Assembly: GCA_028532985.1 (NCBI GenBank)
Contig: JANCIK010000003.1
Span: forward strand, 1,870,001-1,934,000
Length of the DNA stretch: 64,000 nucleotides
Direction: 5' to 3'
DNA from: Stropharia rugosoannulata
Taxonomy: Eukaryota > Basidiomycota > Agaricomycetes > Agaricales > Strophariaceae
In this document: positions 25,693 through 50,230 of the stretch, in pieces
Position numbering within the stretch: position 1 is the stretch's first letter
Layout: every line of letters starts with the position of its first letter
The notes under the pieces: model-generated
The model's input: only the letters and a program-made list of their open reading frames with translations
Database searches by the model: none
Told to the model about the DNA's origin: nothing
Position numbers and translations under genes: made by a program

Positions 25693-27090
25693 TAGTATGC
25701 AGTTGAGTTAGAACTGGCTTTAGAGACCCTGTCAAGTCGGACGGATGACAGGAGCTTGAAGTCAGGAGCAAGGGGAGAAGCCTTCATGGCCTTATCGACC
25801 TCGTCGGGGGTAACCTTCACCATTGTAAAGGGCGAAGCGAAGGTGGGGACGTCGACGATCTTAAGATAAGACCACGACTGGGGAAGGTCAACCACATATT
25901 TCATACCCGCCCAAGGCGAGTTGCGGAACATGGGTTCGAAGCTCCAATACAATGCGTCCAGCGTATGAGCGTTGGGCACCTCGTTTGTGGCAAGGGACCA
26001 GCCTTCGTATGCGACGGAGGCAGAGAGGACCCGGAATTTAGACTTCTCGGCAATGAAGACTGTATTAGCTGCCGAGACAAGCAAGTCAAGGCTGAGATTA
26101 TGTGATTGCGGGCCCTTGGATGGCTCCGCAAACGTGAGAAATGCCTGCTTTCGGGTAGGACCGGCAGCAGTGTAGGAAGGAATCCCTTGCTTACGCTTGG
26201 GTTGAGAGCCAGAGGCTTGCTGCTGGATCTCAATGATCTGGCAAGCAGGAATGTTGGGAAGGGCCTGAGCGAGCTGTACAAGCCCAGCCGGGCCTTTACC
26301 AATGTTGGTGGGGGGGGGACGCGACCTGGCCGCAGCCGAGTAGGACTTACGGGGCTTAGTCGCGAGGTTGATGGCCGGCGGCATGGGAGGCCGCTGGTAC
26401 GGATGGACGGGCCTGGAGGGCCGTGGGTTGACATTACCGGTAGGCTGGGCCCGTTTAGGGGCCGGGGTCTCGGTCTCGGCGTCCGATGGCTCCTCAGCCT
26501 GGGCCACAGCCGGAGCCGAGGGAGGGGGAGGAACGGCAGAAGCCGGGGGGGCAAGAGATGCAGTGGGGGCCCCTTTGCTATCAGAGGTGGTGTCCATTGC
26601 CGCTTGAGGTTGAGCCCAAGGGATCCCGGAAGCCCTGTTGACAAGGCCGAGCAGCGCGAGGCGGAGATCGTTTGGGTTACGAGCCTCATTTTCATAATTG
26701 TCCCAGTTGGAATTGAGGTCGAGCCAGGCCGTGGTCTCGTTCAGGGCATGCACAATAGCTTCGAGGTCCAAATTTGCAGTTTCATCAGTGCAGACAAGAT
26801 TAAGGAATTGAGGCATGGGCAGAGAGGAACCCGACCCCCCCCCCGGAGGAGGAGGAGGCAGGCAGAGAGGAAGAGCGGTCGTCGCCACGAGCCGTCTGAG
26901 CGTCGTCTTCATCGGAAGAGTTGGAATCGTCGTCCTTGGGAGTATCCGTAGGAGGTCCAGATGCCAACCTCGAGCTGGATCGAGGGTTGGAGGGGTTGGG
27001 AAGGGAGCTCGAGCAAGAGGTAGGAGAAGCGGCAGCCGAGGACCCCCTAGAAGATCCACGGCCGCGGCCAGCTCCTCCTTTGGGAGGCAT
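25693..27090 (-). pseudogene. L3 ORF1, frameshifted and missing its zinc knuckles
   Basis: It starts at the ATG at 27090 (MPPKGGAGRGRGSSRG). A ten-C run (plus strand, about 26835-26844) shifts the frame after about 85 codons; the rest reads MPQFLNLVCTDETANLDLE and onward through SKFRVLSASVAYEGWSLATN to NSTAY, where the deletion junction joins ORF2. The same ten-base run occurs in L1. At 26108-26111 it holds the empty target (GCGG) of solo LTR A. 27091-27224 is the 5' UTR. Confidence 0.85.
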
Positions 27091-35919: not shown

Positions 35920-36382
35920 CACATAGGACAGTGCCTGGGTACCGTAATCTATAGTGCTACAGTGAACTATTATTATACCGTAGATCACGGAGTTATTTTG
36001 AGCCATTGCAGAACTAGTATACTACCGTGTCACACGGGACTAATAGCTTTCTAGTATATTACCGTGTTTTACGGGGCCATTGTCGACAAATGGTGATGGT
36101 CGTCAGGGCAAGATCAACCGGCGGTTCTCTATGTCGAGCGGCGGTGTCAAATGGCAGATGGGCTGTGCTAGACCGGCGATTTCGATCGTTGACCAGCGCT
36201 ATTCAAATTCAATATACTACTATTTTTCAGGGGACCAGTGTGAGGCTAGTATATTACCGTGGTTCATGGCTGATTTTGAACAAATGATTGTATGAAAACC
36301 GGCAGTGCATGATGAGAATCGCCGGTCTGGAATAATAAATGGTATGGGACCATAAATTAATATACTACTATACATCACGGGA
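35920..36382 (+). repeat. Left TIR of the KDZ element
   Basis: Pairs with 49767-50230 with only scattered differences. It contains modules of AGTATA(C/T)TACCGTG followed by CACGG or ACGGGG, giving short palindromes, plus ACCGGCGG and its variant ACCGGCGA. Confidence 0.9.
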
Positions 36383-36900
36383 CCAGTGTGAGGCTAGTAT
36401 ATTACCGTGATTCACGGCTGATTTTGAACAAATGATTGTATGAAAACCGGCGGTGCATGATGAGAATCGCCGGTCTGGAATAATAAATGGTATGGGACCA
36501 TAAATTAATATACTACTATACATCACGGGACCAGTGTGAGGCTATTATATTACCGTGGTTCATGGCTGATTTTGAACTAATGATTGTATGAAAACCGGCG
36601 GTGGACGCTGAGAATCGCCGGTCTGGGATAATGAATGGTCTGGGACCATAAATTAAGATACTCCTATACATCTGTGAGTCTGGTATATTACAATGGTATA
36701 TGGGCTCATGTTGCACATATGATTGTTGGAAATTGGAAACCAGAGGTGTTGTATACATCGCCGGTCTCAGGTGATCAATGTTCATACTCATGAAATGAAT
36801 ATACTACTATGCATAATGGGACCGTTGCAAGTGTAGTATATGACTATTAGCCAGCATAATAACAATATTATAGACCATTACAATTGAGGCCATACCTGCC
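36211..36900 (+). repeat. Subterminal ~148 bp tandem repeats of the KDZ element
   Basis: Units begin AATATACTAC (or a variant) at 36211, 36359, 36507, 36656 and 36798 (periods 148, 148, 149, 142). Each holds ATTACCGTG, an ACCGGCGG-type word and a GAATCGCCGGTCTGG word. The copies decay inward. The right end has only about one unit, so the array expanded on the left side after the TIRs formed. Confidence 0.88.
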
Positions 36901-37252
36901 CAGATTATCGTACAACAATATTATGCACCGCCGGTCTAACTGAGACCGGCGATGTGTTTTGGCTAAAGGTATATACCTAATTATTATGCTATGGTAGCCC
37001 ACACCAGTGACAAATTTTTTATAAAAATGCACATTATTGATATGCACCGGCGGTTTTACTAAGACCGGCGATGTCCAGATGTTGCCTTTGGTTTTGAAAA
37101 GCTGAAGTCTGTTGATTGCTTTGCGTGGGAATGTTGACTATTATTTGTAGATGGTTGAACTTTATAATAGCGCACAGCCATCAACGGAACATTTCTCTTC
37201 TCTCCCACACCCCACGTCCTCTTCTTCTCAATAATTCCCTTTACCTTTCTTC
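36901..37252 (+). other. K1 upstream region
   Basis: 352 bases without a gene. It contains four more motif words (about 36929, 36945, 37046, 37063) in head-to-head pairs (CCGCCGGT ... ACCGGCG). It ends in a pyrimidine-rich stretch just upstream of the K1 ATG, typical of a fungal core promoter. Confidence 0.5.
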
Positions 37253-39515
37253 ATGGCTTCGTCTCACAGCAACCTTGAAATCCGAGACGCAATCATCGCA
37301 TTCCATCACAACTGTGTGCGAATTTGGGAGGGAGGGAGCCAACTGTTTTTGAAGGAGAGGTCCAGACTTTGGAAGTCCTTGGTGAGTTTTTTTGTTACAT
37401 GCTCTATGTTTAGTTTACTGACCATTCATTAACAATAGGTTGAACTTCAAGTCCGCAAGCAGTCGGCTGCTGGGCGCACTGTAGGGCTCACGCTCTACAA
37501 CTATGTGCGCAAGCTGTTGTCCAAGGACGCGAATTCCGATGGCCGAGATGCAGACAACGTGCGCTGGGATGCATTCAAGGAGATGGTGGAGACGGGGCTA
37601 TACGTCCTACGGAGGCAGGAGCAGGGGAAGGTGGAAGTGGATATAGGCAGCATGCCTATCATTGGTGAGTAATAAATATTATAACCTTTTGTTCATTTCT
37701 GACACATTCTTAGTCAATCGACCGGTGACTGTCGGGGTGAAGCCTGCACCGCCGGTCAAGGCTGCACCGGCGGCCAAAGCAACAGAGGCGAAGAAGGCCT
37801 CCCCACCCCCCCCTGTGCCTGCCTCTCCCCCTCCCGCACCACCTGCCCCTGTCGCCGCCAAGGCGAAGTCATCGAAAATCGCGACACAGGAGAAGACACC
37901 GTCCCCCACGGGCGCACACCCAGCAGCGTTCAAAGACGTTGTTGAGGTCGTCGTGGCGCTGCCTTTGCAGAAGGTGCCGAAGCAGAAGAAGGCGAAGGCG
38001 ACCGCCGGTGTCAAGGCCAGCGAGAAGGAGGCCACTGTCAAGCCCAAGGCCAAGAATGCGAAGGGGCCAGCCACCAGGCCGCCGGTGGCTGGCCCGTCTA
38101 GACAACCGGCGGCAACAAAATCGCATGAATTCGTCGTGGACACGGACGATGAAAGCGAATACGAGGACGACGAGGACGAGGAGGAAGAGGTACAGCGTCC
38201 CACGAAGAAGGGCAAGGGCAAGGCGACCCAGAGCGAGCCAGAGGCGAGGACAGCGGCGTCGAGGAAATCGAGGCAAGTGGACGATGACAGCGAGTCCGAT
38301 GGGAAACCAGCGGCCAAGGGCAAGGGGAAGGCATGCGCGCGATCTACCGCGTCTAAGGGGCGGATGCCCGCCGATTGCTACAAGACCAAGACGCCTTGTT
38401 GGTCTTGTATCAATCGCGGCACACCCTGCTACGTCGAGTCCCCGGAGCATGAGAAGGAAATGCGGGAGAACCCCGTCAGGGCTTGTAGTACATGTCAATA
38501 CATGTACAAGAAGCCCTGCCTCAAGACGCCGGGCGCCATGACACTGGGCGACAAAGTCGCCCCCTGGGACCACCACCTGAGTCGCTACGTCGACGAGGAC
38601 CGCAAGAAAGTCTTCGCGGACGCCGAGAACGTCGGGGATGTCATTATGATGACGTTGGAGCAAACGCGAGTGATCACCTGCAACGTCGAGCGCGGATTCG
38701 ACGACGCAACAACAGACGTTCGGGCGCTTCAGCGCCAGAACCAGGAGCTCTCGAAGACGCTCGAGAAGACAACGGAGGCGGTCGAGGAACTGACGACGAT
38801 ACGGGCTGATGCGCAGGACCTGACAGACAAGGTCCAGGAGTTGAAGGTGGTGGTTGAGGGGCATGGGCGAGCCCTGACGGAGTTGATGGAGGGACAGCGG
38901 GCTCTGAGGAGCCTGCTGGAGCAGGTCGTCGCACAGACGTCACAGCCGAAGTCAAGGTCAATGACGCCGTTCGACATCCAAGTCCCTCGGAAGACGCCAC
39001 TGCTGGTGTCGACTGGACTGCCGGCCACATCAGGACCACCGGCCCCCACTCCCCCTCCTTTATCGCCTTCACCGGTCCCGCACCATCCACCTGCCCTGTC
39101 TCCATCCCCTGCCCATTCCCCTTCGCCTGTCCCTTCTCGCCCACCTGCCCCCTCCGCCCAAGATCTCATCGAGGTGCGCACACCGCCTCCTGAGTCCCCA
39201 GAACACGAAGAAGAAGACGAGGAGAACGTGGGCACTGACAGCGACACGCCTATGGTCGTGGCTGCAGAGTCGCCCACCGAGCAGGGGGATGGGAAGGCTG
39301 AGGGGGGAGACAATGACGAGGGTGCCAGCAAGGAGGATGAGCTGGACTCGGTGTCGCAGGTTGAGGCGCCTGTGAAGAAGACGAGGAGTCAGAGGGGGAA
39401 GGGTGGAGGAAAGAGCAAGACAGCAGGGACGACCGCCGGTGCCAAGCGAGGGAATGAGGGTGAGGAGAACGAGGAGCCACCGGCGAAGCACACTCGCACC
39501 AAAGGCCGCCGGTGA
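37253..39515 (+). CDS. K1: KDZ-borne Cys-cluster, coiled-coil protein
   Basis: Exons 37253-37381, 37439-37664, 37714-39515; 2157 coding bases, 718 aa, clean GT-AG introns. A short helical N-terminus precedes a long Ala/Pro/Lys-rich disordered region with an acidic patch (DDEDEEEE) and basic patches. Two Cys modules follow: C347-x2-C350-x6-C357 and C376-x2-C379-x6-C386 (PCWSCINRGTPC and ACSTCQYMYKKPC), similar to halves of fungal zinc clusters. A coiled coil comes next (LQRQNQELSKTLEKTTEAVEE...), then a Pro-rich stretch and a basic C-terminus (KHTRTKGRR). I do not know a named family. It is the first gene after the left TIR and a candidate for binding the element-wide word. The layout matches G1 of the host Gypsy element. 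Confidence 0.75.
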
Positions 39516-39868
39516 CATCCTCCTTGCATCTCGATTTTTTTTTGTCTGTATATACCGCCCCTTGAAGTTAGATCAAGGGCAATTTAATGTATCAGTATAT
39601 CTTGAAACTTTGACTTCAGAAGTCAAAGTAAAATTAATTTTTTGTCATTTGCTTGTAAACATCAGTCTGAGTGAAGTCAGGTAAAAATATACATTGATGC
39701 AAAATGTGTGAAGTCCTTAATATGCAAAGTTGCAAATTGTGGCCGGCGGCGTCATGTCAGGTTAGAAGTTAATTTAAATGTATCACAATATATCTATCCC
39801 TAGGTAACTTTATGTACATTTTCGACTGATTGTGACATGTGAGACCGGCGGTGAGACCGGCGGTTTCA
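39516..39868. other. Convergent intergenic region K1/K2
   Basis: 353 AT-rich bases between the 3' ends of K1 (+) and K2 (-). No gene is seen. It contains CCGGCGG words at about 39742 and two in tandem near 39843-39862. Confidence 0.5.
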
Positions 39869-42226
39869 TTATTTCCCCGATCGTCTATTTGTTGAAGATT
39901 TTTTGTGGCCACTGTTGTGGTCAGTCGAGGCTGGTCGGCGCGAGGCTAGGCGAGCTGAATGGCGCATGCCGTGAGCATTGTCAACATGTTCCCTTAACTT
40001 TGGTCGTCCTCGGTGCCTCTTGACTTCAACCACATTCTCGATATCCGAGACCGCCGGTCTTGAAGCAATTCGTCTGGAAGACCGGCGTTCACTTTCTCCA
40101 TCTCCATTCTTGCTGTGTGAGCGTCCTCTGGAAACAGTCTTGTGTTTTGTCTGCTTTGTTCCTCCTTCCTTTGCATCAGGTTTGACAATTCTTACCCTTG
40201 ACTGATTTCTATCCCTTGTATTCGATATATCCCGCAGTCCAGGGGGTCTGCCTTTCTGGGCACGGAATGTATTTCTTCTGCTGGGTCCTTCATCTTTGCT
40301 GTCAGACCGGCGGTTGTCATCTGATCCTGATGCAGATGTTAACTGCCGGTCTCTTAATTCTTCCACCTTGTCTGACTGGTCCTCCACATCTGAATCATGT
40401 TCCGAAACTGATTCTTTCTTCTTACCCTTACGATTCTTGAGAATAAACTTTTTTGCAATGAATCTTGACCTGGATCTAATCCTATTAGTTATTTGTCTAG
40501 GCCGGCAGTCCACATTGTCTTCAGATATGGATGACTCCTTGTGCTTGAGTCTCGTCAGGGGTGCTGGACTTCCTGACATATTGTCATCATCTGATGGCCG
40601 CCGATCGAGAATCATGACCGGCAGTGCATCACTATCCTGCGACTTTGTGGTGATAGAGTCATCAGTGTAGACTTCTGCCATTTGTTGAAGGTCAGCCAAA
40701 CTGATATCATCCTCTCTATTCATCCCGAGGTCTGGGTCTGGTATAGCGAATGATGTGAATAACTCTTCAGGGTACATCTGAGGCACCGGTTCAACAGCGC
40801 CATTAGGAATGGCATGAAATTTGAAGGGAATTTCATTTGCCGCTTGGCGCCAGCGGATGAGATTGAGAATATCAAATGCTGTTGACCTGTTATATGATGA
40901 AGGGTCCCGAAACGAGATGCCATGAGGCATGTAGAGAGGGTCGACGAAGTCCTGCCAATTGTGCTTGTTTTTGATTGATGTGTACGGTGGGCCCCTGGAT
41001 GATTTCGTTGCTAGTGCTACTCAATCAGGTACATACATTAATTGTCAAATTACATTAAAAACATATACACATACCGAAGTGCAATCCGTAGTACTTGCAG
41101 ATCATCCCCTGCATGACCCTGAGACTTTCTTTGCGTCCCTTTGGATTATAGGCAGGCATCCAGGGCATCCCTGATGGATGAGAGCTGGCCTGGTGTTCTA
41201 CAGATTCGGCACCGGCGGCCTCGCCACGCTTGAGAGCAGTGATGTGCTCAATGTATTTTATGTAACTGGTCCTAATTGCTGTGTAGCTATTCGGATCAAA
41301 TTCTTGAAAGCTGGGAAAATTCATTGGCGCATTAGGCTGCACTACCTGGGTATCGTAGCTGACCGGCGGTCAGGAACATTCATGTCAACTGCAGAGATGC
41401 TCACATTGTGAATGTAGCATGTCCGTCTGGTTTATCAAAAGTTGTGATCCAGAGTGATCTCACACCCATGCTCTCAAACATTTTCCTATCCACTTCACGA
41501 CAAATGTCTGAACAGTGCTTCACAGCTTGTCTATACAGTCTCTTAGTAATGGACCGGCGGTGTAATCAAAAACTGACTTGGCTTGAACCTCTGGTGGCAC
41601 ACCCTTCGCTTTCCATTCCATCACCTCCATTTTGATTGCATCTCGTTCCTCATCTGTCAGCATCTCCTTAATATACTTCTTTGCCCCTGCATAATATTTG
41701 ATCCAGGAACGGCTACTGTAACCGCCGGCCCCACCGCCGGCCTCATCATCCGCGACCCTGTCGTCGTCACCATCAGATTCCTGATCACTCCCACCCAGTG
41801 CCTTTCGTGCACAGCGCTTTGCTTCCTCTTCAATCTCCTTGCCTTTACGTGCAATGACAACAGAGTCAAAGGTAACATCCATGTTAAAACCTTTAATTTT
41901 CATGCGCCTCGACATCTTAGCATTATTCTTGAACCAATTGCATATTGACTGTTACAGCATTAGGCGTTACATTGCATACATTGCTTGGGGCATACCCTTT
42001 TTTTCTTCTTCCATTCCTCTTGCATCTTTTCATCGAAATTGGGATTACTTTTTTTGTATTGTGATCCCCACAATGCTTTGATCATTTTGATGACCTTTTC
42101 AGCGAGGAAAGTGCCCTTCCGCTCTTTGACCTGTGCACGATATCCCTCGACATGATCCCTCAAAATCTCCAACTCCTTCGCTGTCCATATCTGTGTAGAG
42201 GCCGGGGTTTCTTCTGGTGTAGGCAT
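39869..42226 (-). CDS. K2: KDZ-borne protein with AT-hook-like motifs
   Basis: Five exons on the minus strand: 42226-41996, 41948-41578, 41539-41405, 41358-41075, 41016-39869; 2169 coding bases, 722 aa. Introns are 38-58 bases and each model junction keeps frame. The N-terminus (IWTAKELEILRDHVEGYRAQ ... WKKKKRSICNWFKNNAKM) looks like a helical domain seen with basidiomycete transposons, but I cannot name it. The middle is acidic (SDQESDGDDDRVADDE). The C-terminal third is Arg/Ser-rich with RGRPK and KGRPPG, matching AT-hook cores, so DNA binding is likely. CCGGCGG words lie inside several introns and exons. The role in transposition is unknown. Confidence 0.72.
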
Positions 42227-42384
42227 TATGGGGAAAGGGATGAAAAAATAGACCGATGCATTCCTGCTTATAAGTAGATTAAAATAGATACATTTATTGA
42301 TAACGACATGAGGCAGAACACATGTGCCATTGGTTTCTTAATATAAGGTCGAACACTGAATGCACACGCAACTGTCTACTCCCA

Positions 42385-45300
42385 ATGTGCCGTGTCCGTA
42401 TAACCCAGCACAATGTTCCAAATCAAGCTGGTGGCATCCAGATAGAAGAGCGGGACCATAGAGGAAAGGTCATTACAAAGAAGCACAAACGTGGTGGGGA
42501 ACCCATTGCAGAGAATGTAGCACCGACTATTCCTGCTATTCCTGCTATTCCAGATGTTCCACCAGGCTTTGAACCACAGGAAGTACCTGACCGTCTAGAC
42601 TATGCTGGAGATATAACTGAGGATCAGGTTATCGAAAACCTACAAAACTTGGATTTACCAGTATACAGAGGCAAGGTATGTTATATCACCCACATGAATT
42701 GCACACTGCATATATTAAATTGTGCAGTCGCAAAACGATTTTCTTAGAGAATGGCTGGTCAGAAGGGATACCCACTTGAAGATTGTGATGGCATCTCATG
42801 CACCTGCCAGAGGGATCGATACATGCAATGCTTGCAATGCACCTGCTGCCAAATGGAAGTGTAAGGCATGCTTTGGAGGACGACTCTTATGCATGACATG
42901 TTGCCGGCGGACTCATGATTTCATGCCATTTCATCGTATTCTTCGTTGGGATGGTAGTGCTTTCACACCGGCGGCACTATGGCAAGTTGGTGTAAAGCTT
43001 CATCTTGGCCATCAAGGAAATAGATGTCCTAATACAATGGTCGACTACAACAACGTACAGGAAATGCAAGAGGGAGAATATGGCGATGAACATGAAAATG
43101 ATCTCTGCCGGGCTTACAATGCCGGTCTGCAACCCGAAGCTGAGGAAGTCGCTGATGAATACATCAATGAAGACACAATTGTCTTTGATATTGATGTTAC
43201 TTACCCTCGAGTCTTACCGAGGCCAGCCCAAAATGATACCCATGGTAATCCATTTGTCACAATTGTCGAGGTGAATGGCATTCATCACCTGCCGGCTGTC
43301 AAATGTCACTGCAACAATCAGCCGCCGGAGGATAGCCAATACATGCAGCTGGCACTATTCCCAACCTCCTTTGATGTGATCAAGACTGTATTCACATTTG
43401 CTGTTCTTCGGGACTTCAGGCTGTCTAACCTGGAGTGCAAGACATCTGCATATCAGTATTACATGAAGCTCCGCCGGTTGACCTGCCCTGCCTTCCCACA
43501 GGCAGTATTGGATCGATATCATGAGCTCCGCCGGCTCAGTAGACAATTTCGGAACATGAAGATGTGGACCATGCATGGCAGAGCACATGGGCTATGGCGA
43601 CCAGAACCTGATCCACCTGTTGAGCCAGAAGTGCACATTCTTGCTGATAATGAAATACCAAATGAGGATATTATGCCTCCACCAGTTGCAGAACAGTCTG
43701 AATCAGACAGTGAAGATGGGGCAAGTGAAGACGCCGCCGGTGGCACCGCCGGAGGGATTAAAACGACACCATCGATGTACGGCAATATACTGGCTCTATT
43801 TTGCCCTGCTTGTCCTCAACCAGAAATTAACCTCCCTGAAGACTGGAAAGAGAATGACAAGAAGTTTCTTTTTATTCGCAAGTACTGTGCTGATGGGAAT
43901 TTCAAGGCTGACCATTTAAATCAAAAGAATGCCCATGATGATATTGATCTGACAGCCGGCCAGGCATTCATGACAGCCGCCGGTCCATACCAGGAGCATT
44001 TGAAGGATGCCAAAAAATATTCCAGGAAATTCAAGGAGCCGCCGACTTGCCATTCTCATCGTGCCCAGCTTGACAGTGAAAAGGTTGTTTCTGGCCGCCG
44101 GGTCAGAGGGATTGGTGTACAGGCATGTGCAAGACACAGCTGCTTCTGTCCAGGCAGCCTTGTTGACTTCGAATTGGGTGAACGTCAAATGTGCATGGAC
44201 TACAGTATTTCTGAAGCACTCAAGCATACCAACACCGGCGGCATCGAGACTGTCATGTTCATTTATGACATTATGTGTCAGTTCTACAAGAATATGACTA
44301 GGCGATTTCGACTAATGAAGGGTCTCACTTGGCCACAAAGACTTCGATGCATACGCGCAGTGGGTCTCTGGCATGTACATGGCCACAAGACGGAATGTCT
44401 ATATAGATGGGCATCTACCTATATCCCTGGTGTTGGCATGGTAGACGGAGAAATCCTGGAAACCCTGTGGAGCCTGCTAAACAAGACATCTCGCAGTGTT
44501 CGGACTGCAACCGCCGGCCATAGAGCTGAAGTACTCGATGATCACATGGGCGATTCTAATTGGAAGAAGACGGTCAATATGCCATCTACAATCATCAAGA
44601 AATATATTCGAGCAGTGAATCAAGAAATTGATGCTATTGTGTACTATAATGATATTACTGCAAGTATGCCGGCGGATAAACTGCCAGAATGGTTGGAACA
44701 GATCGAGGCTGCTGAACGCCGCCGAGATGAGGACCCAGAAGCAATGGACATTTATCGACCGGCTGTTCAGAAGGCTGCAACAATGCAAGAAATTGAGGTG
44801 CAGCTTTCAGAGAATGAAATTCGAAACGGAGAGACCGGTGGTCGAGCTGTATGGCTCTCACAGGGTATTCAAGCTGAACAATTGCAGTGAGTATCAATCA
44901 TTATTACCAGCCAATTTATTCATTATTTAGAAATGAATTGCGGTCCCATGTCCGCCGTATGCCTGGAGACCCAACAGTGGCTCAGCGTCAGGATCTTGTA
45001 TGCCGCCGGCACACACTTCGCAAGCAGCTGGACAAATTTTCTCGCAATGCAGTTGACATCATGGGCATTGATATTTTGAATTCTTTCAATGATGAACATG
45101 ATGTTCCCATCCTGGATGGTGCACAAACGGATGAAGAAGCAGAGGTGGCCAATGAAGAAGTCAGTAATGCTGACCCAGAAAGGCAGCTAATGGCATTCCC
45201 TTCTGAAATCACCGAAGAGATTTTGACATCCGCCGGTGCATCTGCCCAGGATAAATCTATGCTCCGCCGGTTACAGAAAACAGAGCTAAAGATCAGAAAA

Positions 45301-46085
45301 GCTCATGCTGATGATTTATTGGAATCTATTCGTGGAGAAATCATTCAGAAATCTTGGCTATATGCATTTGATGTCAGGAGGACAGATGGTGCACATCACA
45401 CCAGAGCTCAGGATCGTGTGGTCGTGTTGGCACAGGCAACCAGTACACACTGGCGGAAATATAATGAAAACAGATTGTCAATGCTACGCCTTGCAAAGGA
45501 TGACACTGATAGGGCTGCCATTGAACAACAATTCCCCATCATGTCAAAAGCTGATACAAATACTAGTGCATCAATAACTGAACCGAATGCAAGGGGGGGT
45601 AGCAGTTCTCGAATGGCTTGGATATGGAGAATAGAACATAATATGGATCCGCCGGATGATAATCCGCTGGTCGCAGGAAATCTCAATCGCGAAAGAATCA
45701 ATGATTGTAAGTTTTATTGATATTCATCAAGCTGTGCCTAAATACAATTGTAGTCTATCGAATTCATTAGCTACGAGCAAGAGCACAGAAAATGCGCTGG
45801 GAGGAAGAGGTTGTTCTATGTCAGCATGAAATGGACTGGACAGTCCGGTTCTATGTGCATATGGCAAATATGTGGAAAGACCGGCGGAATGTCTGGGCAG
45901 ATGCAGTAACCGCCATTCAAAACCCATCAAATGACGCCGCCGGCCAATTCAACGCTCACCCACTAGGTTTCCAGGCTTATGCACAGGCACAGATCAACTT
46001 ATGGAATGAATTAGGTAGGGTAGCAGATGCTAGATTTAGTAAGGCACATGTACATTATATAAGCCACTGGTATCATGTGGCCTGA
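42385..46085 (+). CDS. K3: CxC2-KDZ transposase
   Basis: Exons 42385-42675, 42728-44886, 44931-45706, 45778-46085; 3534 coding bases, 1177 aa. N-terminal CxC2 cysteine cluster: C130, C133, C142, C145, C152, C155, then H160 and H164 (CNACNAP ... CCRRTHDFMPFH), the zinc domain typical of KDZ transposases. A long RNase H-fold catalytic region follows with candidate acids D495 (FKADHL), D611 (YDIMCQF) and E672/E675 (DGEILETLW). A CHSH...CARHSCFCPG cluster sits between them. The C-terminal helical domain continues to 46085. It cuts and pastes the element through its TIRs in the nucleus. No stops or frameshifts. The acceptor of intron 3 (ACGAG) was chosen because it alone keeps frame. Confidence 0.88.
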
Positions 46086-46184
46086 GGAATGAATACATGT
46101 GACCTTATCAATCAACCATCTCTGCACTGTTGATCTTGTCTTTCATTTTTACCTCCACGGCTACTCAAACTCCTTCTCATCACA

Positions 46185-48224
46185 ATGTCTTCTTCAAACA
46201 CCAACCCCATGCCGATCCTCGATGAAGATGCCCGCATCGATCATGTGCAGTGCAACCTGCTTCTTTACCTCTGCATGTTTCGCATCCGCTGTGGCCTCAG
46301 ATACTCGATCACTGGTGGCGAGCTTCGCCATGATAACCCCTATGCCCGCCTGCTTATGAAGGAGATAGTGAGTTTTATCTATTGATTATTGCTTCACAGT
46401 TAACAGTTCTATTCAGGAATTCACATTGATTCACATTTCAACATGTGTAATGAAAGGATACCGAATGAGGCAGCCGTATCTACTTGATCAGTTGGCCATC
46501 AACGGTTACGGCATCGCCCGCCGGCCAAATGGCATTCTGATTCCGCCGGCCTACAACCCGGAGTTCATGAGAAAAGAAGATGTCCTGCTAATGTCAATGA
46601 CGGAGACAACGCCTATTTGGTGGCTCGCACCAGTGGATGATATCGAGGACTACCAAGTCACCGCCGATTCCATCCGCCACCACTTCGAGATACTTCTAAC
46701 TTTCATGATAGATTTCCACGACAACATGCACCAAATGCCAGATCTCCCTGGCAGTCCAGTGCCATGGGTCGAGATTCCAGGACTCGCAGCAAGGCCGGCG
46801 GGGTCCAACCCAACACTCGATCAAGTTTGTGAATCCTGCTTGAAGAAGGATGAAAAGTTAGAATGGCTTGAATTTTATTTCAAGATGTTGAAGGGTGAGT
46901 TCGAACGGGGACAGCGAGGTGGGCCTCAAGAGCCCAGGGAGAGCATATGGGAGAACCTTCGACCGCCGGGCAAGAACACCTACACCTATCCCCCCCAGGA
47001 ACCTCTCCCCGGAATCGCAGGACGCAACTGTCTCTTGCCGCGATTCATCAGCCCACTGCCAGAAGACAGCAGTCCTAGTCCCTCGGTTGGGTCATCATCT
47101 CAGGGAAGCTCCACGATGTCGGATGAATTCTCGAATTCACCCGCCGGTCCTACGACAGCCCCACGCACATTCCAACTTCGTTCAGGCGTGGCCTCTGTCG
47201 AAGAGCTGGCTGCATACATCGCCGGGAAGCCATTCGCCAATGGCAGATTAATAATCAATGACCCAGTGCAGCAAAGGCCTGTCGCGGATACCCACATTGG
47301 CAAAGGGAAGGGGCGAGAAATCACCATTGCGACAATCATGAATGAGCCAACGACCGCCGGTGGTGACATCGCCGGTCCATCAAATATCCAGCCAGACTTG
47401 GATGAAGACGAGCCGCCAATGGAGGTCCCAGTCGCAGAGGACGTGGATGATGAAGGTGAAGGAACCGAAGAGGATGAAGGGGACAACGAAGCAGATGAAC
47501 ATGAATCTGCGTGCACAACAGATGGTGAGGAGACCGATGATGAAGATGAACCCCCGATGGACGTACTGGCGGACAAGGTGGTCTTGCCTGCGAGACCCCT
47601 CCCCAAATGCAATGTCACCAAACCTGGATGGGCCTCTGCCATAGAAATGGAGGCTTACCGGGCTAGCCTGGAGGGGAGACGACCCCCAATGCGGAGGACA
47701 CCCACTCCACAATTGGTCGACACAACACTCCCGATCCAGAGGGAGCTTGATTTGCAGGCCGCCGGTCTCATTGGGCAAAGGCCACAACTTGGAGATGGGA
47801 TGCCTGACGGCAATACCCCGCATCAACCCATCGATTTGATGGCCGATGACAATGAAGAGGCCGGGACGCCCATGGAAATCAGTGATGGGGAAGATGAGCC
47901 CTCGATTTCAACAATTGTCGCCGCCGGTCATAAAGCACTCGAACAGATTGATGAGGATGATGAGGCCCCCATGGAGGTTCCCGCACCAGGAGATGATACA
48001 CTTCATCTCCTGCAAAATGAGAGTGGGGATGAAGATTCACCACCGATGTGTAAGTCTTAATATTTATGACAGATTCGAGCTGTACTAACAACCGGCGGTG
48101 TGGCCGGCGGCATTTAGATGTCCACACCGATGACGATGACTCGGACAATAGCTCGGTATGCACATCACTTCCTTCTACCTGGAGCCCCAACTCAGACTCC
48201 TCTACTTCTGATGATGATGATTAG
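46185..48224 (+). CDS. K4: KDZ-borne acidic protein with PPMEV-type repeats
   Basis: Exons 46185-46367, 46417-48049, 48118-48224; 1923 coding bases, 640 aa. The first ~200 residues look folded (YLLDQLAINGYGIARRP ... WWLAPVDDIEDYQ). The rest is disordered and acidic, with at least four spaced repeats of (D/E)-x-PPMEV or close variants (EPPMEVP, EPPMDVL, APMEVPA, TPMEIS), ending in SSTSDDDD. Such repeats often serve as short binding motifs. I recognise no family. It is in tandem with K3, 99 bases after its stop, suggesting co-regulation. CCGCCGGT words are embedded in the coding sequence and read as Ala-Gly or Thr-Ala-Gly. Confidence 0.7.
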
Positions 48225-48400
48225 GATGCAGATGCAGATGGGGAACCAGACTCAGACGTCTAGGCAGGCAACATCCCATTTTCGATCCATTGCACCGCCG
48301 GTCCCCTTCTTCATGTTGTATCATCATCTCGTCTTCTTGTTAATTAGTTTTTTGTATTTCCCCGTTTGCCCAATTTTTGTTATGTACAAATACAATTTAA

Positions 48401-49700
48401 TCATTTTATGCTTTTAAACATATTCACATTAGGCCAAGTGCTATGAGTATTTGTATAGTCTGCCATTGTAGACTTTGAGTGAAAGACAAGACAAGTCCGA
48501 TCCCCTTTACAGTATGCACTGTGAACAACTACCCTGCTCGATAGGGCAACTATTGTTCCGGGCCGATAATGAAGATCCAAGCCCAATCCAGGCAGTGACA
48601 TTGTCCCCTTCTGATAAGTCCCCAAACTGATGACAATGTCGAACATCGAGTGACTGCTGCCGGTGTCACGATGCGGTGGTGAGTCTCTGTTGTTGATCAC
48701 TGTGAGCACGCCAAAAGGCACATTCCAGTGTTCCAATAGACTCTTCAGCTCTTGTCCATGCCGAACCTGGTCCGGGTGTTCACCTAGCCATGTCAGCATC
48801 CTGAGACCGGCGGCGTATTGGCTAGGATTAACCACACTTAGTAGACCACCCACAAGGGCAAAGAACATATGTTGTTGTCGAAGCCATGTAACACCGGCGG
48901 CCTTACGGATATTTTTGCTGACAACTGGCGGTAACGACATCTGGACACATTCATCAACTCTTGTATTTACAATTATAGATAGACCTACCCCATAGCCCAT
49001 TTCAAACCATGCTAAGGCAAGACTCACATTTCCTGGCTTCCTCCAGGCTGCCTTCTGATGATAATTGGCCAGGCCACCTCTCCAGTCTGAATTATTTCTT
49101 GTGGTCTTCATTAATGGGGTCAGTTGATCTAAATTCTCCCATAGACCGTACTGGCCGGCGGTCAGACGGTCAGACCTCATTGTGCACAACAATTGTCATC
49201 ACCTATCTGCATATACGACATCATGGCATTAGGTAGATACCATACCAAAATATTCCCATCCCTATCTGTTACAATGCACGGTGTCTTAATGTATCTCTCC
49301 TCCATAAATATAGGCGGAAACTTCTTCAACATTTTTTTCTCAACAGCCTCATTCTTGCCAGTCTGTTTATTTGTCAAGCTCTGAATGTAGTCATGTACAT
49401 TCCATATAGTTGAATCTAGCATATATCAGTAATGTCCTTTAAAACACAGGTAAGTCCAGGCTCACATTGGTTTTGATATGCCATAACTAGTGTATCAACA
49501 ATATCATTACATTCCCATATTAATTGTGCAGCCCATGACGATGGGGGGGAATTAATTTTAGTCTGATTAATGCGGCAACGGACAGATGTCTGTATGAATG
49601 AGGATACAGAGGCTGTCAGATCAATAGGACTATTGTCAGAAGTGGGTTGCATGGTGGTTGAGAAGAAAGGTGTCAACGAACAGGCCACAGGAAAATTCAT
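48401..49700 (-). CDS. K5: TET/JBP-like 2-oxoglutarate/Fe(II) dioxygenase
   Basis: Exons 49700-49466, 49415-49217, 49175-48401; about 402 aa from the ATG at 49700 (the frame is open a little further upstream). TET/JBP signatures: ILVWYLPN, then the iron ligands H-x-D in PPHRDTG (about residues 313-315), the LPGLGLDLHYRPGTIVALSSRVV strand pair, the distal His in VVHSA (about 363) and the 2-oxoglutarate Arg in GDRTCLVF (about 371). The family oxidises 5-methylcytosine; basidiomycete copies are frequently linked to KDZ transposons. All predicted catalytic residues are present. Convergent with K4. A likely role is removal of methylation from the element's own CpGs. Confidence 0.85.
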
Positions 49701-49766
49701 GTCTTCCACATCTTGCCTTGTGCATACCGGCGGTCTCGATAGACAAATTTAGAATAATTTACAATA

Positions 49767-50230
49767 GTCCCGTGATGTATAGTAGTATATTAATTTATGG
49801 TCCCATACCATTTATTATTCCAGACCGGCGATTCTCATCATGCACTGCCGGTTTTCATACAATCATTTGTTCAAAATCAGCCATGAACCACGGTAATATA
49901 CTAGCCTCACACTGGTCCCCTGAAAAATAGTAGTATATTGAATTTGAATAGCGCTGGTCAACGATCGAAATCGCCGGTCTAGCACAGCCCATCTGCCATT
50001 TGACACCACCGCTCGACATAGAGAACCGCCGGTTGATCTTGCCCTGACGACCATCACCATTTGTCGACAATGGCCCCGTAAAACACGGTAATATACTAGA
50101 AAGCTATTAGTCCCGTGTGACACGGTAGTATACTAGTTCTGCAATGGCTCAAAATAACTCCGTGATCTACGGTATAATAATAGTTCACTGTAGCACTATA
50201 GATTACAGTACCCAGGCACTGTCCTATGTG
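49767..50230 (-). repeat. Right TIR of the KDZ element
   Basis: Inverted partner of 35920-36382, including one subterminal unit. It ends CACTGTCCTATGTG at 50230, followed by GCACATA. Confidence 0.9.

Follow-up and report, generated by a model that had tools for sequence, protein, structure and literature searches.

A KDZ transposon of Stropharia rugosoannulata filled from end to end with the word CCGSCGG, a candidate binding array for its own zinc-cluster protein

Architecture of the element

The window analysed here, a stretch of 64,000 nucleotides from contig JANCIK010000003.1 of Stropharia rugosoannulata, contains a mobile element which, judged by its sequence, is a Kyakuja-type KDZ DNA transposon. 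The element carries the seven-letter word CCGSCGG (S being C or G, hence CCGGCGG or CCGCCGG) from one end to the other, in coding and noncoding DNA, and encodes a zinc-cluster protein, K1, which is the probable reader of this word. Its features are the following.

35920..36389, forward strand: left terminal inverted repeat (TIR), 470 nt, starting with CACATAGGAC, 99% complementary to the right arm
49761..50230, reverse strand: right TIR, 470 bp, ending with CCTATGTG
Outside the TIRs: 7-bp target-site duplication (TSD), GCGCATA on the left and GCACATA on the right
36206..36672, forward strand: subterminal repeat with a 148-bp period, three copies in overlapping register, each with ACCGGC(A/G)GT...ATCGCCGGTCT
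36100..50050, both orientations: array of 56 CCGSCGG words, preferred context RCCGGCGGY
37662..39515, forward strand: K1, open reading frame (ORF) of a zinc-cluster protein with weak coiled-coil matches, candidate word-binding protein
38397..38519, forward strand: six-cysteine cluster of K1, CX2CX6C-X18-CX2CX7C, Zn2Cys6-like, with its halves apparently in reversed order
39869..41915, reverse strand: K2, two ORF pieces (39869-40930 and 41520-41915), 5 words
42722..44890, forward strand: K3, KDZ transposase (PF18758, 150.6 bits), 12 words in three phases
44887..45720, forward strand: K3c, ORF piece downstream of K3, 4 words
46426..48060, forward strand: K4, ORF of an acidic protein, 8 words
48401..49192, reverse strand: K5, TET/JBP dioxygenase (PF12851, 58 bits), 3 words

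The ORF pieces are open frames and not full gene models. The PF18758 match of K3 lies far above the cut-off of 26.6 bits, which makes it a KDZ member, and K3 also carries a CxC2 cluster (PF18803, 76.4 bits); a Pfam search with K4 gave no match. The termini are of the CA..TG type (CACATAGG..CCTATGTG), and the bounds of 36100..50050 given in the initial annotation of this DNA fall slightly short of the true ends, which the TIRs place at 35920 and 50230. By eye, the two TSD copies match at six of seven positions in the window copy (hereafter A1) and at all seven in a second copy, A9 (L031 and L032).

The genome holds 81 matches to the window transposase and 123 to PF18758. The loci were grouped into clades by identity to the window transposase, not by a tree (loci listed: A, 25; B, 8; C, 5; D, 3; E, 4; G, 7, a loose group; F, 3). 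Outside clade A, one element each of B, C, G and F and two each of D (D, D2) and E (E, E2) were read at length, together with four 5-kb cores from B. K3c is conserved in A9, B and C; its conservation in D2, E and E2 is weak.

Distribution of the word

The word occurs 58 times in the window, and 56 of these occurrences (25 CCGGCGG and 31 CCGCCGG) lie inside the element, between 36118 and 50032, in good agreement with the approximately 55 first counted by eye. The flanks had been described as free of it; the roughly 50 kb outside the element contain two words, at 26375 and 32230. The number expected in the element is 0.9 under an order-1 and 2.3 under an order-2 Markov model, and its G+C content per 2 kb is 44–57%, compared with 39.5–55% in the flanks. 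There are 4871 words in the 47.97 Mb of the genome, about one per 9.8 kb, and 5060 occurrences of the reversed control word. Along the element, from TIR to TIR, the density is 1–6 per kb in both orientations, or about one word per 250 bases, with 39 words in ORF pieces (4.3 per kb, in all three phases) and 17 outside them (3.3 per kb). K1 to K5 each hold some, as had been noted for all five genes, and the short upstream ORF piece K3n holds none.

Every 7-mer was also scored with a maximum of one count per 200-bp bin. The word reaches a score of 80 in A1 and 73 in A9. In six non-KDZ control stretches that overlap in part, the top 7-mer, whatever its sequence, reaches 8–19. The initial annotation had expected the word to recur in copies of the same clade, and it is indeed present throughout the 12 clade A copies (L001 to L012) whose transposase match is nearly full-length, with 22, 23, 24, 25, 24, 19, 16, 14, 23, 23, 10 and 21 words per 5.2 kb, respectively, i.e. 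10–25. The other 14 clade A loci hold 1–18 words, the fewest being found in decayed ones.

Selection on the word

Selection on the encoded proteins had been dismissed earlier as the cause of the words, and codon-preserving shuffles, along with the use of all three phases, bear this out. Synonymous-codon shuffling within the ORF pieces gave a mean of 5.7 words and a maximum of 14 in 2000 trials, compared with the 39 observed; the observed count of the individual pieces was reached in none of the 2000 shuffles for K1, K3, K3c and K4, in 1 for K2b, in 8 for K2a and in 85 for K5. The codons that carry the 12 transposase words can all be aligned with clades B and C. None of the 12 sites forms a word there (2–5 of the seven letters match), and the amino acid is often a different one, which indicates that clade A acquired its words by substitution.

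Comparison of A1 with A9 shows both retention and turnover. In an alignment of 6.9 kb with 78% identity, A9 retains a word at 20 of the 28 A1 word sites (16 the same, 4 flipped), compared with 35 of 107 for other two-CpG 7-mers (P=3e-5); the same stretch has 8 words found in A1 only and 10 found in A9 only. Within a further 2.5 kb, at 64% identity, A1 has 7 words and A9 has 11, only 3 of which are shared, so the density is kept as the sites turn over. For the transposase alone, 9 of 12 words are shared between A1 and A9 against a background of 0.52–0.57 of 7-mers, which is not significant by itself.

The word is a palindrome around its centre (CCG-S-CGG), and swapping the central base turns CCGGCGG into its own reverse complement. 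Among the changes seen across clade A copies, 144 of 170 single-change cells are CpG transitions, and a further 18 cells, at 6 distinct sites, have a central G to C change, while a central A or T is found in none. In the A1–A9 comparison all four central-only changes exchange C and G, whereas 29 of 108 background changes do so (P=0.005), and neither CCGACGG nor CCGTCGG occurs in A1 or A9. The variant CCGGCTG has 22 occurrences in A9 and 3 in A1, possibly reflecting a shift of specificity within clade A.

The commonest broken form is CCGGCAG (84 of 170 single-change cells), and a special decay of one CpG of the word was considered and rejected: the excess in old copies follows from a general context effect, as C in XCGC changes more often outside words too (CCGC changed in 34 of 79 cases, the word position in 84 of 181). 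In young copies some asymmetry stays (36/263 versus 9/133, and 1/263 versus 5/133 for the partner C), of which shared ancestry may be the source. More generally, C in XCGC (CCGC, TCGC, ACGC) has changed in 43–47% of cells in old clade A copies, and in only 14–18% for GCGA, GCGG and ACGA, a dependence on context that could reflect a deamination or methylation preference of the host.

Words paired at 12 bp

Four pairs of directly repeated words at exactly 12 bp are present in the window element:

39845..39863, forward strand: word pair, 12 bp, direct
41722..41740, reverse strand: word pair, 12 bp, direct, in K2
43734..43752, reverse strand: word pair, 12 bp, direct, inside the transposase gene
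48092..48110, forward strand: word pair, 12 bp, direct

A9 has eight such pairs of adjacent words. When words were placed at random and any spacing was allowed, one of 5000 trials reached the A1 value and no trial reached that of A9. Genome-wide, CCGGCGG-N5-CCGGCGG is found 57 times and its reversed control twice; the five spacings of 7–11 bp pooled give 19 pairs (control 15), and the eleven spacings of 13–23 bp give 33 (control 5), with 9 of the 33 coming from one repeated context. Many of the 57 pairs are copies of one another, and the 17 distinct spacers among them are a better guide to the number of independent origins; 53 of the 57 have a listed clade A transposase or K1 no more than 12 kb away. 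This arrangement points to a protein whose tandem copies would sit on the same face of the helix.

A pair of the form CCGGCGG-AAATATTCAAAAA-CCGGCGG, or a one-letter variant of it, recurs 9 times, usually as facing pairs 2.7–3.9 kb apart (the loci include C3:1847274, C4:2132137 and C5:1707192), and may mark another element with paired words in its ends. A nucleosome-like spacing of words was rejected, as the excess of gaps of 130–265 bp in A1 and A9 is absent from D, D2, E and E2 and the range had been picked post hoc.

Words of the sister families

The sister clades D, E and G carry words of their own. In the whole stretches, TCGGCC is found 42 times in D and 45 times in D2, TCGGCG 61 times in E and 43 times in E2, and the G stretch has 24 TCGGCG and 27 TCGGCC (word TCGGCS). 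Within element bounds that were chosen after the words had been seen, the core TCGGC was observed (expected) 72 (24.6) times in D, 82 (27.8) in D2, 99 (23.7) in E, 93 (29.5) in E2 and 67 (20.8) in G, and 26 (25.7) times in B, 33 (24.6) in C and 26 (24.6) in F; the two flanks of the window element give 42 (45.3) and 11 (13.0). The core is depleted in clade A (16, with 34.3 expected), as CCGGC is in D (10, with 21.8 expected). CCGGCGG does not occur in B (five copies), D, D2, E2 or G, and occurs once in C (1.4 expected), once in F and twice within the bounds of E (4 in the whole stretch). The words of clade E favour a direct spacing of 7 bp (6 and 7 pairs), and TCGGCNNTCGGC is found 97 times genome-wide (control 60), with 38 of the 97 in five short clusters at E-family loci.

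No comparable private word was found in the B, C and F elements read. GAGCGTG, a candidate word for F (17 against 2), was lost once it was counted one per 200-bp bin. The clade C copy (L035 and L036) has 16 copies of GCGCGCA/TGCGCGC clustered at 450–2218 of its stretch, probably outside the transposase part of the element.

The zinc-cluster gene

A pattern search for six-cysteine (Cys6) clusters found them in A1, A9, D, D2, E and E2, as well as in three further K1 types; the cluster of G contains one in-frame stop, and none was found in the B, C and F elements read. Gene and word go together in all seven clades: A, D, E and G have both, and B, C and F have neither (Fisher P=0.029). Of the 26 genome matches to the K1 domain, 21 have a listed clade A transposase within 20 kb, and a match 19 kb away from a C locus is part of an adjacent A copy. 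Four clade A copies have no K1 nearby; these are decayed, with 1–2 words each. The E-type domain has 17 matches in the genome and adjoins transposases of D (3/3), E (2/4) and G (6/7), and none of B (0/8), C (0/5) or F (0/3). K1 types are 54–57, 71–80 or 86–99% identical to the window K1 over the domain, and the word is identical in all three. The initial annotation had named K1, K2 and K3 as possible binders, and of these K1 fits; K2 and K3 do not, as both have relatives in clade C, which lacks the word.

No Pfam family matches K1 above its cut-off. Among the K1-type domains, PF00172 (Zn_clus) is the commonest Pfam match, in 7 of 11 sequences and always below the cut-off. In the best of these stretches (L039, L037, L045 and L052) the first cysteine triplet aligns with positions 15–34 of the profile and the second with positions 1–16, and this crosswise match suggests that the halves of the zinc cluster are swapped. 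Zn2Cys6 proteins typically recognise CGG triplets, and a coiled coil that follows the cluster mediates their dimerisation (PMC5559640); the words of clades A, D, E and G all include CGG, and the weak coiled-coil matches of K1 are downstream of its cluster. A profile search of PDB sequences with the K1 domain returned no match, and neither a protein search nor viral contigs gave a K1 homologue outside this genome.

Alongside K1, the other genes of the element differ strongly between copies. The transposases of A9 and the window element are 92% identical, compared with 59% for K1, 46% for K2a and 50% for K4 over the matches, and in other copies K1 is at 54–57% and the TET gene at 63–65% identity. 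The genes around the transposase seem to have been swapped or to be evolving much faster. A decayed K1-like locus on C5 (L055, 36% G+C) has no word and is uninformative.

Interpretation of the array

The array, its signature of selection (conservation with flips in place, and independent turnover), the 12-bp spacing, the words of the sister families and the clade-level co-occurrence with the zinc-cluster gene are all observed, and they give good support to the initial idea of an address for an element-encoded protein. Our reading of them is that K1 quite likely binds the CCGSCGG word. K1 would recognise CCG-S-CGG, singly or in tandem pairs about one helical turn (12 bp) apart, and selection acting on point substitutions would have produced a K1 site about every 250 bp over the whole element, including its coding sequence. 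The protein would then paint its own family's copies and hardly anything besides. Most likely, such painting would shield the family from silencing by the host (CpG methylation, heterochromatin), as VANC does for VANDAL transposons, and the D, E and G families would use their own zinc-cluster proteins with their own words.

We lean, by a modest degree, towards the array being an element-wide, family-specific binding array for K1 that serves self-recognition, of which anti-silencing would be the likeliest outcome, although not the only one. If K1 does bind, anti-silencing as the outcome appears evenly balanced by analogy with VANC. Equally finely poised is the broader proposition of a family-by-family code, in which each Cys6 family would have re-edited its whole sequence, transposase codons included, into a dense array of sites for its own diverged, half-swapped Zn2Cys6 protein, so that recognition of the whole element protects it from silencing or self-insertion, the 5-methylcytosine (5mC) dioxygenase being separate and interchangeable.

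Binding by K1 and anti-silencing are both inferred, and several results weigh against this interpretation. The co-occurrence of gene and word concerns seven identity-defined clades, with one or two elements each read at length outside clade A. The best PF00172 match is at 19.1 bits (cut-off 21) and the window's own K1 has none. The structural model of the K1 domain has a pLDDT of 63; its three Foldseek matches (two Pho7-DNA entries and a CBF3 chain) are non-significant, and VIA-align returned no match. Clade D is only moderately enriched, with best 7-mer scores of 23 and 18, close to the 19 of a repeat-driven control, and the four B transposase cores hold 6–9 TCGGCG where 1.3–1.9 are expected, without a Cys6 gene. 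Finally, CpGs inside words decayed about as often as context-matched CpGs among clade A copies (56/1068 in young copies, about 59 expected, and 181/728 in old ones, about 205 expected), and recent protection of, or purifying selection on, existing words is not seen among young copies.

The array may instead serve transposition, with a coat of K1 allowing the transposase to recognise, compact or spare the element, for example as target immunity against self-insertion. The similar density of words in coding and noncoding DNA, from TIR to TIR, is what an element-wide coat needs; the anti-silencing of VANDAL elements works from noncoding sites alone (PMC5735166). In D, E, G and the A9 subclade the Cys6 gene has no TET gene alongside it. 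Clades B and C, however, move with related transposases and have neither the Cys6 gene nor the word, so that the KDZ reaction can do without it, and we consider this explanation unlikely, if the best of the alternatives to K1-based self-recognition.

It is less probable still that the word is read by another protein, namely the CxC2 cluster of the transposase, K2 or a zinc-cluster protein of the host. CxC2 is a cysteine cluster next to the KDZ domain, and host fungi have many Zn2Cys6 factors. Against this, the word-less clades B and C both have relatives of K3, with relatives of K2 in C as well, and a host reader leaves the different words of the three other Cys6 clades unexplained. A mutational or gene-conversion process specific to clade A, spreading the word with no binding protein involved, could be in keeping with the decay of existing words in other copies, which is near the context-matched neutral rate. 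We regard it as very improbable: the word-keeping changes of the centre are C–G exchanges only (6 sites; 4/4 versus a background of 27%), patch copying would lead one to expect neither 12-bp pairs with 17 spacers nor transposase words on aligned codons, and the different words of D, E and G would require several such processes.

That the word recruits K5 had been suggested in the initial annotation, and each word does contain two CpGs. A TET match lies within 20 kb of the transposase in 16 of 25 clade A loci, 8 of 8 in B and 4 of 5 in C, and in none of D, E, G and F. B (5 of 8 copies read) and C (1 of 5 read) have 0 and 1 CCGGCGG despite TET, and these clades lack the Cys6 gene. Conversely, none of the three A9-subclade loci has a TET match within 20 kb, yet they hold 21–23 words per 5.2 kb, and the full A9 stretch has no match to K5 and holds 65 words. 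D, E, G and the A9 subclade, all TET-less, have both the Cys6 gene and words, and by clade there is no association between word and TET (Fisher P=0.49). The words track the Cys6 protein K1 and not the 5mC dioxygenase K5, and given this double dissociation an address for K5, direct or via an adaptor, is the least credible of the explanations, in spite of the TET genes of clade A.

If K1 does paint its own family, sequence-specific self-recognition of transposons has arisen outside plants too, by means of a different protein family, and its strength suffices to influence codon choice in a transposase and even the amino acids. The persistence of KDZ elements in methylating fungi would gain a direct and testable cause, distinct from the TET gene, and matched zinc-cluster domains and words (CCGSCGG, TCGGCC, TCGGCG, TCGGCS) would be available for studying how specificity changes. 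Scans for private words can likewise reveal unknown DNA-binding partners of mobile elements.

Comparison with known systems

The likeness to VANC and the Arabidopsis VANDAL elements (Mutator-like elements, MULEs), drawn in the initial annotation, is sound for the logic and fails for the placement of sites. In both cases a transposon protein goes with a family-specific short motif that is repeated in the transposon's own DNA, differs between related families and turns over fast. VANC motifs are noncoding tandem repeats, with binding and demethylation demonstrated (PMC5735166, PMC10398659), whereas here 39 of 56 words are in ORF pieces and the words are dispersed apart from the 148-bp repeats and the 12-bp pairs. 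The element also belongs to a different superfamily and has a zinc-cluster protein as its candidate binder. The logic is thus VANC-like, and the protein parts and the reach into coding sequence differ, the latter giving scope for a function as a coat or in target immunity. Short self-words dense in both coding and noncoding DNA and read by a protein of their owner are known as the DNA uptake sequences of Neisseria and Haemophilus, which are, by contrast, bacterial and chromosomal and serve DNA uptake.

The element shares a KDZ transposase, a TET/JBP gene, a 7-bp TSD and CA..TG ends with the TET-bearing Kyakuja elements of Agaricomycotina (PMC12730594). It differs from the two Laccaria families described there without TIRs by its 470-bp TIRs, and the absence of TIRs is a trait of those two families and not of the superfamily. 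TET oxidation is proposed as non-targeted in the same article, and a term search of it found no element-wide word. In a partial literature search, with subscription journals mostly outside it, no description came up of private words spanning a whole KDZ element, nor of a zinc-cluster gene in such elements. As regards Zn2Cys6 proteins such as Pho7, Gal4 and Leu3, K1-type domains resemble them in having two CX2CX6-7C halves, CGG-containing candidate sites and, as weak matches in K1, a downstream coiled coil (PMC5559640), and differ in being sub-threshold to Zn_clus, in a longer linker (14–18 residues), in the apparently reversed order of the halves and in being encoded by a transposon.

Other repeats in the window

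TGGTGAA/TTCACCA, between 8000 and 28000 of the window and outside the element, was considered as a second private word and rejected, since its occurrences are mostly duplicated contexts of repeats. The 148-bp subterminal repeats (36206–36672, and in the TIRs) are rich in TAGTATA/TATACTA in addition to the CCGSCGG word; TAGTATA occurs 16 times in the element, compared with 0.84 expected, and these TAGTATA-rich repeats may be a binding site of the transposase.

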